Assembly (NCBI GenBank): GCA_958346165.1
Contig: CATVQO010000005.1
Location: 1 to 24,216 of the forward strand
DNA from: an uncultured Collinsella sp.
GTDB taxonomy: Bacteria; Actinomycetota; Coriobacteriia; Coriobacteriales; Coriobacteriaceae
Length of the DNA stretch: 24,216 nt
Direction: 5' to 3'
Shown piece by piece: positions 4,723-24,120 of the stretch. Positions within the stretch are counted from its first letter, which is position 1. Every line of letters begins with the position of its first letter. The notes beneath the pieces were generated by a model. It was not told the DNA's origin, did not search any database, and worked only from the letters and a program-made list of their open reading frames with translations. The position numbers and the translations under genes were made by a program.

Positions 4723-7700
4723 ATGCTGGAGCTCAAAGGAATTTGCAAAAGGTACGTCACGCAGTCGTTTACGCAGGTGGCGCTCGACAACGTAAGCCTG
4801 TCTTTTCGCGATAACGAGTTCGTGGCCATTCTGGGTCCCTCAGGCTCGGGCAAAACTACGATGCTCAACGTTATCGGCGGACTCGACCACTTTGACTCGG
4901 GCGACCTGCTGATCGACGGTATTTCGACCAAGGACTTTCACGATCGCGATTGGGATGCCTACCGCAACAACCGCATCGGCTTTGTGTTCCAGAGCTATAA
5001 CCTCATTCCGCATCAGACCATTTTGGAAAACGTTGAGCTGGCGCTGACGCTCACGGGCGTGGGGCATGCCGAGCGCCGCCAGCGTGCGCGCGAGGCGTTG
5101 GAGAAAGTCGGCCTGGGCGAGCACGTTAACAAGCGCCCGAGCCAGCTTTCGGGCGGGCAGATGCAGCGCGTGGCCATCGCCCGCGCCCTGATTAATGATC
5201 CCGAGATTGTGCTGGCAGACGAGCCGACCGGCGCCCTGGACTCAACGACATCCGTGCAGGTCATGGATCTGCTCAAGGACGTGGCGCGCGACCGTCTGGT
5301 GATTATGGTCACGCACAATCCCGAGCTGGCGTACCAGTACGCCACACGCATCGTCAATCTGGCGGACGGCAAGATTACCGACGATTCCGACCCTTTTGAT
5401 GTTGCCAAGGCCACGCGCCGTGAGGCCAAGCCTACGCGCAAAACCTCGATGAGCTTTGTGACGGCGCTGGGGCTTTCTGCCCGAAACCTCATGACCAAAA
5501 AGGGCCGTACGGCCATGACGGCCTTTGCAGGTTCGATTGGAATTATCGGTATTGCGGCAATCCTGGCGCTCTCCAATGGCGTGAACAATTACATCAAAAA
5601 GGTCGAGGAGGATACACTCTCGAGTTACCCGCTCACCATCTCCAAGCAGGACTACGACCTGTCTTCCATGATGGGCGGGCAGGGGGCTGCGGATGATGAC
5701 TCGCCTGAAAACGTGGATTCGTCCGACGACGGCGCCGGCGGCAAGGCTCAGGGAACCGATAAGATTCCCGTGGTCACGGCTGTAAAGGATATGTTTGCGA
5801 GCGTTAAGTCTAACGACATGACGAGCTTTAAGGCATGGCTTGACGACGGTGGCGACGGTATTGACAAAGAAGTCAATGCTATCCAGTACGGCTACGGTGT
5901 ATCGCCGGTTGTCTATCGTGCCGGCAAGGGCGATGAGAAGCCTGTCCGGCTGGTGCCCAACGCCATGACCGAGGCCATGAGCGGAGGCGCGAGCTCGGCG
6001 GCAACGGTGAGCATGGAATCCATGGGAACCTCGGTCTTTAACGAGATGATTGACGACCAGCGCCTGCTCGACAGCCAGTACGATGTCGTCGCCGGTCATT
6101 GGCCCACGTCCGCCAACGAAGCCGTGATGGTGCTTTCGAGCCGCGGTACGGTGGGCGACTATACGCTCTACAGCATCGGCGCGCTGGATATCGATGAGCT
6201 CAACGACCTGGTTAACAGTGCTATGACAGCCGACGGCAAGATTGAGACGCCCAAGACCGGCACCGACTTTACCTACGATGATGCGTTGTCCACGACGTTC
6301 AAGGTGCTGTCGCCGGCCGATGCCTATCGCAAAAACGAAGAGACCGGCATGTGGACCGATATGTCTGGCGACACCGACTTTATGGCCGCCAAGGTTGCCG
6401 ACGGTATCGACGTGCACATTGTGGGCGTGGTGCGACCCAACGAGACCGCCAACGCGAGCGCGTTGTCCCCGGGTATTGCCTACACGCATGCGCTGACTCG
6501 CCAGCTTATGGAGCGCGCCGCCGATTCACAGATTGTGCAGGAGCAGCTCGCCCACCCCGAGACGGATGTCTTTACGGGTAAGTCTTTCGATGAGCTGCAA
6601 GGCGAGGCCAGGCAAGGAGTGGATCTGGGCAGCATGTTCAGTGTGGACGAGGCGGCGCTCAAGAGCGCGTTCTCGTTCGATGCTTCTGCGCTCTCGGGTG
6701 CGGCCGGCGGTATGGACCTGTCGGGTCTTGACTTGTCCGGTCTGGACATTGACCTTTCGGGAGTAGGGAGGGATATCGACTTCAGCGACATCATCGCCAA
6801 AGCGCCAACCCCCGATTTCTCAGGCGTCTTCGATGGGTTGGAGCTTACGCCCGAGCAGATGCGGCAAGTGGGGGTGCTCGCCAACCAGCTGTTCACGGGT
6901 TTTATACAGTCGGAACAGTTTAAGGCGCTGTCACCCGAAGATCTTAAGGACACGTCAAAGCTTGCTGCCGCATTCTCGGCGTATCTTGAGCATGATGCCG
7001 CAGCCCAGCAATGCCTGGCACAGCTCAAGGCGCTGGGCGGCGATGCTCTTGCCGAGCGCCTGAAACAGGCGATGACCGACTATGTGCAAAAGCAGCTGGC
7101 TCCGTATCTGCAGCAGGCTATGGATCAGATGATGAAGTCGATCAGCGACCAGATTGCGGCGACGGTGTCAGCTCAGCTCAAGGCGGGCGCGGCAGGGCTC
7201 ATGGACCAGATGGCGACGCAGATGTCTTCGAGTATTGCCAACTTGGCGGGCGCCATGCGTGTGGATGCGAGCGCCTTTGCCCGTGCCATCCATTTCAACA
7301 TGGACGCCGAGGACCTGAGTTCGCTCATGATGAGCTATGCCAAGGCTTCGAAGCTCACCTACGACAACAATCTGGCCACGTTGGGTTATGCGGACGAGGC
7401 GGATCCCATCTCGGTCAAGATTTTCCCGCGCGACTTTGAGGCCAAGGAGCGCGTGCTCGATTACATCGATGCGTACAACAAGCAGGTCAAAGCCGCCGGC
7501 CACGATGAGCAGGCAATCTCGTACACAGACTACATGGGTATCATCATGGGTTCGGTGACCGACATCGTGAACACCATCAGCTTGGTGCTCATCGCATTCG
7601 TGAGTATCAGCCTGGTGGTGAGCTCCATCATGATCGGCATCATCACCTACATCAGCGTACTGGAGCGCAAGAAGGAGATTGGCATTCTGCGCGCAATCGG

Positions 7701-23332: not shown

Positions 23333-23713
23333 CTACTGCATGGTTTCGGGGGCTACCAGGTCGAGCATCTCGTGCAGCTTGTCGCGCGTGACACCCAAGG
23401 CTTCGGCTTGGCTTGCCGCTTTCGCAAGCAGCTCTTCGATATGGCAGAGCTGGTTTTCGCGCAAGAGCTCTTGGTTGCCCTCGGCGACAAAACAGCCTTT
23501 GCCCTGCACGGTGCAGATAAACCCGAGCTGCTCCAGGTCGGCGTAGGCGCGCTTGGTGGTGATGACGCTCACGCCAAGATCGCTCGCGAGTGCACGGATG
23601 CTGGGGAGTTTGGCTCCCGCAGCGAGCGTGCCCGATAAGATCTGAGCTTTGACTTGCGAGGTTATTTGCTCGTAAATGGGCTTGTCGCTCGAATTGGATA
23701 GGATGATGTCCAC
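23333..23713 (-). CDS. GntR-family regulator, YtrA type
   Basis: The 126-residue regulator has a GntR winged helix (PIYEQITSQVKAQILSG, LPSIRALASDLGVSVITTKR, and GKGCFVAEG) and only a short helical tail of about 45 residues, as in the YtrA subfamily. These proteins usually repress their own operon with an ABC transporter, and here the ATPase and permease follow directly. The start is GTG at 23713 with AAGGAG five bases upstream. The gap to the ATPase start at 23309 is 23 bases. A matching operator-like inverted repeat overlaps a promoter upstream, so self-regulation is likely. Confidence 0.93.
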   Translation of the reverse strand: MDIILSNSSDKPIYEQITSQVKAQILSGTLAAGAKLPSIRALASDLGVSVITTKRAYADLEQLGFICTVQGKGCFVAEGNQELLRENQLCHIEELLAKAASQAEALGVTRDKLHEMLDLVAPETMQ

Positions 23714-23740: not shown

Positions 23741-23791
23741 GTGTATATAACCGGTAAGCACAGTATATATACACTATGCACAGTTATGCAA
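23741..23791 (-). promoter_or_regulatory. Promoter and likely operator of the GntR-ABC operon
   Basis: On the minus strand, TTGCAT (23791-23786) and TATACT (23767-23762) are 18 bases apart and form a good promoter. GTGTATATA at 23741-23749 and TATATACAC at 23766-23774 are a perfect nine-base inverted repeat separated by 16 bases; the right half overlaps the -10 region. Such a dyad fits a YtrA-type repressor site, and the position would block transcription. The pairing with this repressor is inferred. Confidence 0.65.
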
Positions 23792-23824: not shown

Positions 23825-24120
23825 TCTCAATCTGTAACATCTGGAACCGATTTGGACGGCTACCTGTTATAGATTGAGATTTTGCTGGCGGGCCCCACCT
23901 AGTTGTCTCAATCTGTAACAACTGGAGAAGTTATTGGCTGCTAGATGTTACAGATCGAGACATTGGCCGCCCGTCTATCCTCATATCTCAATCTGTAACA
24001 GATGGACCCGTTTTGAGTGGCTAGATGTTACAGACCGGGATCTTTCTGGGACGCCCACCTGGTTGTCTCAATCTGTAACAGGAAGAGGTTCAAAAACCGT
24101 CTAGATGTTACAGATCGAGA
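23825..24120. repeat. Regular array of alternating 15-base elements (four 55-base hairpins)
   Basis: The element TCTCAATCTGTAACA occurs exactly at 23825-23839, 23906-23920, 23986-24000 and 24066-24080. Its inverted copy (TGTTACAGAYCGRGA or near) occurs at 23865-23879, 23946-23960, 24026-24040 and 24106-24120. Starts are 40, 41, 40, 40, 40, 40 and 40 bases apart, so orientation alternates on a 40-base period and hairpin units repeat every 80 bases. Each hairpin has 15-base arms and a 25-base loop; the spacers between hairpins are 26, 25 and 25 bases. Loops and spacers differ, though units 1 and 3 are partly alike (16 of 25 loop bases match). Three of four right arms are preceded by CTAGA. No coding frame fits. 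Function unknown. Confidence 0.92.

Follow-up and report, generated by a model that had tools for sequence, protein, structure and literature searches.

Among the short dispersed repeats of bacteria, repetitive extragenic palindromic (REP) sequences are known best, and a single type of enzyme is linked to their spread. In BIME-2 of E. coli, the alternating inverted extragenic elements are REPs linked to RAYT, and their copy number changes by whole units. REPtrons, in the available parts of PMC3116915 and PMC8266576, consist of a gene linked to its own short inverted repeats, which occur near the gene and as dispersed extragenic copies, in inverted doublets with conserved ends and a variable spacer. 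According to the available part of PMC7319586, cooperative binding of AbiEi to a pair of 23-bp inverted repeats, separated by 3 bp, bends the DNA; four such repeats are bound by Rv2827c, arranged as two pairs whose members are 13 bp apart. Here, an array of short alternating elements from an uncultured Collinsella sp. was analysed together with a candidate partner gene found in relatives. The array lies at 23825..24120 of the 24,216-nucleotide stretch of DNA under study (contig CATVQO010000005.1, positions 1 to 24,216), called the window below.

The arrays resemble the REPtron or REPIN-RAYT systems, as far as the available parts of the sources describe them, in that a gene is linked to its own repeats and the repeats are also dispersed. 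They differ from them in the partner protein, which is not of the HUH Y1 type and joins an AbiEi-like part to a Vsr-like PD-(D/E)XK part, and in the repeat, a probable duplex-DNA dyad with a fixed 25-bp loop, set in alternating chains. Compensatory changes, described as common in REPINs, were not found between the arms, and a hairpin was not indicated. Alternating inverted extragenic elements and copy changes by whole units are shared with BIME-2 of E. coli, whereas neither REPs nor a linked RAYT were found here. Compared with the type IV antitoxins AbiEi from S. agalactiae and Rv2827c from M. tuberculosis, the present protein has an added C-terminal nuclease part, its gene is flanked on either side by repeats that are also dispersed, and the few neighbouring genes inspected included no recognisable toxin gene. 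I-Bth0305I and Vsr-like endonucleases (homing endonuclease catalytic domain of the PD-(D/E)XK type) differ in that the present gene, of predicted activity, is enclosed by arrays of its presumed site.

The window array and its distribution within one clade

Eight 15-bp elements were found in the window array, in the orientation + - + - + - + - and with start-to-start steps of 40, 41, 40, 40, 40, 40 and 40 bp (starts 23825+, 23865-, 23906+, 23946-, 23986+, 24026-, 24066+ and 24106-). Paired in order they form four dyads of 15+25+15 bp, 55 bp each, with loops of 25, 25, 25 and 25 bp and linkers of 26, 25 and 25 bp. The four left arms were identical, and the right arms were 0-2 letters off TCTCRATCTGTAACA. 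This recount agreed with a preliminary description of the same DNA, which had reported eight alternating 15-base elements at steps of about 40 bases, identical left arms and one 26-bp gap. A motif scan of the whole window gave nine matches at up to three mismatches, compared to 0.89 expected, and none of 100 shuffles reached nine; the ninth match (774-788) is isolated from the array. A CRISPR had been rejected in the preliminary description and was rejected here as well: the elements are 15 bp long and inverted, and the loops share a consensus and recur at other loci (cas genes were not searched for). The features are as follows.

23825..23879, no strand: dyad 1, arms 23825-23839 and 23865-23879, loop TCTGGAACCGATTTGGACGGCTACC; orthologous dyad G015:C1:2345613-2345667
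23880..23905, no strand: linker 1, 26 bp; the other linkers, 23961-23985 and 24041-24065, are 25 bp each
23906..23960, no strand: dyad 2, arms 23906-23920 and 23946-23960; orthologue G015:C1:2345694-2345748
23986..24040, no strand: dyad 3, arms 23986-24000 and 24026-24040, the right arm with two mismatches
24066..24120, no strand: dyad 4, arms 24066-24080 and 24106-24120; orthologue G015:C1:2345854-2345908
23333..23713, minus strand: GntR-family regulator gene (Pfam GntR, 59.4 bits), left neighbour of the array

The comparison genomes were relatives of the source, the nearest of which (G001) shares 39% of sampled words. The 55-bp dyad was present in 38-67 copies per genome in 21 of 41 genus genomes, in one copy in three and in none of the other 17 (up to three mismatches); the reversed-pattern control gave no dyad in any of the 41. 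The search of relatives for paired elements, which the preliminary description had called for, thus showed that the array is not peculiar to this locus. A class-wide search detected the dyad in one of 125 genera and in 22 of 296 genomes, of which two had a single copy. A scan of named genomes returned at least 120 stretches, and among the 80 titles listed all were Collinsella, 46 of them C. aerofaciens. Orthologous window loci were fetched via the neighbouring GntR protein, whose orthologues showed 94-100% identity in 21 array-rich genomes, all those in which they were found, and 59-65% in 16 others. On account of this split the array family is placed in one tight clade, the C. aerofaciens clade.

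Dispersed arrays numbered from 17 (G015) to about 20 (G059) per genome. On the G015:C1 chromosome, elements at 0-1 mismatch formed 17 arrays of 2, 4, 6 or 8, with element 1052559 as the single exception. A role as chromosome-domain sites was considered as well: array positions round the chromosome gave Rayleigh P values of 0.015 (G059) and 0.028 (G015), which rose to 0.09 and 0.22 after thinning of neighbours; a DnaA_N search in three genomes found none. A phage origin of the arrays was rejected, as viral contigs held no exact dyad and phages gave no blastn match to the array. Reading array pairs as transposon ends was likewise rejected, since such pairs also enclose ordinary genes, for example that of an NRAMP-like transporter.

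Three single dyads were observed outside the array-rich genomes. In G014, which is otherwise free of dyads, a lone dyad (L018:1501-1555) lies beside what we take to be a tRNA gene, and its flanks resemble those of the L059 array, whose neighbour is presumably integrase-like; judged from its flanks, import of this dyad is possible. One dyad in G029 (L114) lies upstream of clpB on DNA 97% like that of the C. aerofaciens clade, and one in G031 (L113) lies beside a clpB fragment, G031 having in addition its own more distant clpB. Both clpB dyads are embedded in DNA that resembles the C. aerofaciens type, which makes import by between-species recombination likely. The names glgP, msmK, clpB, prfC and NRAMP used for genes here are presumptive, given by reading the proteins and not by a family search.

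A gene bracketed by the arrays and its paralogs

In relatives, and elsewhere in the genome than the window locus, a candidate partner gene was found with the same arrays on both sides at all 17 loci where both sides were readable. The gene was present in 19 of 22 array-rich genomes and in none of 21 array-poor ones. One copy of the gene lies at L170:5888-6946. About 55 bp separate the upstream array from the start of the gene, a start codon that is probable rather than established, and arrays also lie downstream. Among the fold families compared, matches assigned the protein an AbiEi-like DNA-binding part with an N-terminal winged helix, fused to a C-terminal part of the Vsr/I-Bth0305I-like PD-(D/E)XK fold with conserved catalytic residues; the PD-(D/E)XK residues were invariant in 62 aligned proteins. 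It is the likely partner of the arrays and a putative nuclease. No credible match came from a profile search of PDB sequences (best E 0.78). The two relatives scanned both matched PADLOC AbiEi models. Neighbours of the partner gene were read at L170 and L191 only, where no DUF1814-type gene was recognised; two neighbours scanned in G015 were an amidohydrolase and a protein without a Pfam match. The GntR-family gene beside the window array is not thought to be the partner of the array.

Matches from the same protein search provided 51 paralog loci, in 32 groups below 60% identity. Their flanks were compared to those of 120 control genes, taken with our own codon-based gene caller from pieces of G059, one piece of G015 and loci of array-poor genomes. 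An inverted repeat, defined as 15-mers with at least 13 matching letters at a pitch of 25-60, occurred on at least one flank in 24 of the 32 groups and 29 of the 120 controls (P 2e-7), and on both flanks in 11 and three, respectively (P 1.7e-6). A word common to both flanks, alike in at least 14 of 15 letters, was found in 17 groups compared to seven controls (P 6.5e-9). Group-specific motifs were present on both sides within 650 bp in 9/9 loci of group A333, 7/7 of B360, 4/5 of C347 and 16/16 of the main group, for which 16 of 19 loci were used. None of these four groups, which have at least five members each, showed the motif of another group within that distance; the pairing is private in all four.

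The A333 group carries alternating arrays like that of the window, stepped at 31/30 bp; in L324 one side has as many as 12 elements. Copies away from the genes were counted in the sequence pieces examined, and reversed controls gave none for any of the three motifs. Motif B formed seven inverted pairs at 40-41 bp in four distinct places, and motif C nine at 37 bp in four places. Two further motif B pairs bracket a B360 gene (L132) and were for this reason not taken as evidence of dispersal. As a separate observation, motif B (GTGGAWWWTCTCCCA) dyads carry extra half-sites 28-29 or 51 bp outside the dyad, unlike the simple alternating arrays (L323, L054, L338 and others).

Dyad anatomy and array turnover

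Loop length was almost invariant: among 425 distinct dyads it was 25 bp in 420, 24 bp in one and 26 bp in four. The 248 distinct linkers measured 25 bp (144), 26 bp (98), 24 bp (5) and 23 bp (1). Chains held 2-10 elements, with one of 16; 182 of 203 distinct chains start with + and end with -, and the other 21 were odd-numbered under the tolerance used. The symmetrised consensus is mostly A/T at -31..-29, a purine at -28, TCTCRATCTGTAACA at -27..-13, TAG at -10..-8 and, in the middle of the loop, three positions of A/T; loop letters outside these positions are nearly free. The type A set comprised five genomes plus the window. Because the dyads were collected with up to three mismatches per arm and four in total, which favours conserved arms, divergence was determined in a flank-anchored comparison at the glgP-msmK locus, for which the 11 of 21 loci with six elements were used. 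Genomes differed there by 3.6% in the arms, 20% at the A/G position, 9.9% in the linkers, 9.6-9.7% in the flanks and 15.7% in the loops. Arm letters and loop length are thus held, as the preliminary description had suspected when it proposed selection on arms and distance, for instance in protein-binding sites. As an observation in its own right, the two halves of the loop avoid complementarity genus-wide (3.87 of 12 alike, compared to 4.96 between loops), which perhaps guards against unstable long palindromes.

The preliminary description had also weakly favoured a chain of minus-strand RNA hairpins, from arm differences that would be G-U pairs, and had suggested a covariation check. The G-U argument failed, as the left and right letters at arm position 5 (A/G) vary independently (Fisher P = 0.88; 162 collapsed dyads), and no covariation of the arms was seen in this set. 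Pairing at arm positions was at the level expected from the alignment columns. In the loop, the dyad register showed depleted pairing (mean z -1.96), with a mild enrichment (z about 3) at two position pairs that are shifted from it by two places. Compared to column-resampled sequences, folding was slightly weaker, with energies of -3.35 versus -3.89 (standard deviation 0.30) for the loop and -22.3 versus -23.1 (standard deviation 0.32) for the whole dyad. Single dyads folded well as RNA relative to shuffles (z -2.6 to -7.9), as any inverted repeat would. Rfam gave no family at gathering score, and three microRNA matches lay far below it. At glgP-msmK (L058) the array at 5084-5299 sits between terminator-like hairpins, one at 5014-5037 after glgP and minus-strand ones at 5306-5412 on the msmK side, which also speaks against a minus-strand hairpin chain. 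Two terminator scans differed here: one found three minus-strand hairpins, all outside the array, and missed that of glgP, and the other did the reverse. None of 15 loci scanned had a terminator inside the array, and six of the 15 had a terminator-like hairpin near it. Because the arms lack covariation, the dyad is favoured as a binding site in duplex DNA rather than an RNA hairpin.

Arrays change by whole dyads. The glgP gap was occupied in all 21 loci read, always with an even number of elements (2-10). Of 23 loci at clpB, 18 carried elements, in two of them an odd number. At the window locus, 11 of 21 clade genomes had 4, 6 or 8 elements and 10 had none, with closely similar junctions. Dyad 3 of the window array is absent from G013 and G003 as one step of about 80 bp. 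In G015, which is without the partner gene, one dyad remains in the place of the gene; two matches of this site to G059 overlap by 22 bases inside the half-site (18 against G001 and 16 against G030). Loss of the gene by recombination between half-sites would be the simpler reading of these junctions.

A proposed nuclease-borne replicator and its alternatives

Gene linkage, dispersed copies without a gene and private pairing match the REPtrons, yet the enzyme is unrelated and the site appears to be duplex DNA; for these reasons a nuclease-borne replicator with non-autonomous arrays is proposed. The dyads would be the cognate sites of the clade-specific AbiEi-like and Vsr-like PD-(D/E)XK protein. 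We assign a probability of about 0.6 to this statement as a whole and a lower one to its spreading step. The DNA-binding part would read one half-site of about 24 bp, WWWR-TCTCRATCTGTAACA-NNTAG, and the 55-63 bp dyad would be the site of the two-part protein. Two protomers seated on opposed half-sites 40 bp apart may associate via their C-terminal parts, bending the DNA in the way reported for AbiEi; the larger C-terminal part would fit the larger 40-bp pitch. Nicking or cutting at dyads could then be followed by repair, which would add or remove whole dyads or place copies of them in further intergenic gaps. The arrays, that by the gntR gene among them, would mainly be non-autonomous copies whose form is held constant by selection for binding.

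Several results weigh against this proposal. A Pfam scan of the partner protein gave only a weak DUF559 match (13.8 bits, cut-off 20.6) and none to AbiEi, NCBIfam and PADLOC gave no match at all, and the Foldseek matches all stayed above E 0.001 (AbiEi 3.2e-3). Three array-rich genomes, G015, G011 and G010, are without the partner gene and hold 42, 40 and 53 dyads, numbers that are also seen in genomes with it; the gene is therefore not needed at present for keeping the arrays, which outlive it or do without it. No dyad was found by majority rule on either flank in eight of the 32 paralog groups. A single inverted pair away from genes, at 31 bp, is all the evidence of dispersal for motif A. 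No target-site duplication was seen at the GntR locus. The architecture, the dispersal, the conserved arms, the bracketing and the private pairing are observed, and binding, cleavage and spreading by the partner protein are steps that we infer.

The system is regarded as a new kind working like a REPtron, as it lacks a defining REPtron feature and is at most a putative toxin-antitoxin pair. A wider claim, tentative and at somewhat less than even odds, is that of an undescribed class of within-genome replicators convergent on the life of REPtrons. Each AbiEi-like/Vsr-like nuclease would own a private duplex dyad (with pitches of 31, 37, 40 and 41 bp in one clade) that brackets its gene and has seeded non-autonomous copies, and dozens of orthogonal pairs may exist in Collinsella. 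Among the matches listed from the openly licensed literature there was no report of these arrays or of an AbiEi/DUF559 protein paired with repeats; PMC8040213 and PMC7771070 proved to treat other subjects. If true, a REP-like way of life would have arisen more than once, with an unrelated enzyme type and private, evenly pitched duplex sites, and much of the repetitive DNA between the genes of a common human gut genus would be explained. Nature would also have supplied, in these pairs, a collection of orthogonal DNA-recognition parts that allows direct comparison of the protein sequence with the sequence and pitch of its site.

The alternative that survives best, itself unlikely, is that the AbiEi-like protein is an autoregulator and a global regulatory or DNA-organising protein, the arrays being operators or chromosome-organising sites that serve the host and the nuclease fold dimerising or lying dormant. 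The paired 23-bp sites of AbiEi and Rv2827c (PMC7319586, available part), the short distance from the upstream array to the probable gene start and the constant occupancy of the glgP-msmK gap would fit such a role. It accounts poorly for the arrays downstream of the gene, for the differing presence among close relatives at the GntR locus and for the invariant PD-(D/E)XK residues. Arrays in G015 lie in six divergent, eight tandem and three convergent gaps of 17 (the last read by hand), or with two of the tandem gaps convergent in another reading; gene orientations came from our own gene callers, which disagreed at some loci. These mixed orientations argue against promoter regulation.

Improbable is a role in defence or addiction, in which a toxic or anti-phage nuclease would be held by chromosomal arrays acting as decoys or self-marks. 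AbiEi is part of an abortive-infection system (PMC7319586, available part), and the PADLOC matches of the two relatives point the same way; the partner protein itself has no such match, no DUF1814-type partner was recognised among the few neighbours looked at, and the searches of viral contigs and phages were negative. There is very little chance that the arrays are classical REPs or BIMEs mobilised by a RAYT (HUH Y1 transposase). Their alternating orientation and extragenic place resemble BIMEs, and Y1_Tnp, present in 37 of 43 genus genomes, is mildly associated with them (22/22 array-rich versus 15/21 array-poor, Fisher P 0.009). The same counts leave 15 array-poor genomes with Y1_Tnp, no Y1_Tnp match lay within 100 kb of an array in the complete genomes G015 and G059, compensatory changes are absent from the arms, and the arrays bracket another gene. 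A chain of structured RNA hairpins is the weakest reading and, given the pairing and folding results above, is virtually dismissed.

Two minor observations concern the surroundings of the arrays. Beside the gntR start, at 23741-23773 of the window, the sequence GTGTATATAACCGG...CAGTATATATACAC is a possible GntR operator, largely kept in the 21 clade loci read, with a few letter changes. A second palindromic repeat is very frequent: CCACCACAAAGG / CCTTTGTGGTGG, the two often separated by some 21 bp, gave 275 matches in 105 partly overlapping loci at up to one mismatch, for example in the flanks of L053, L055 and L060.
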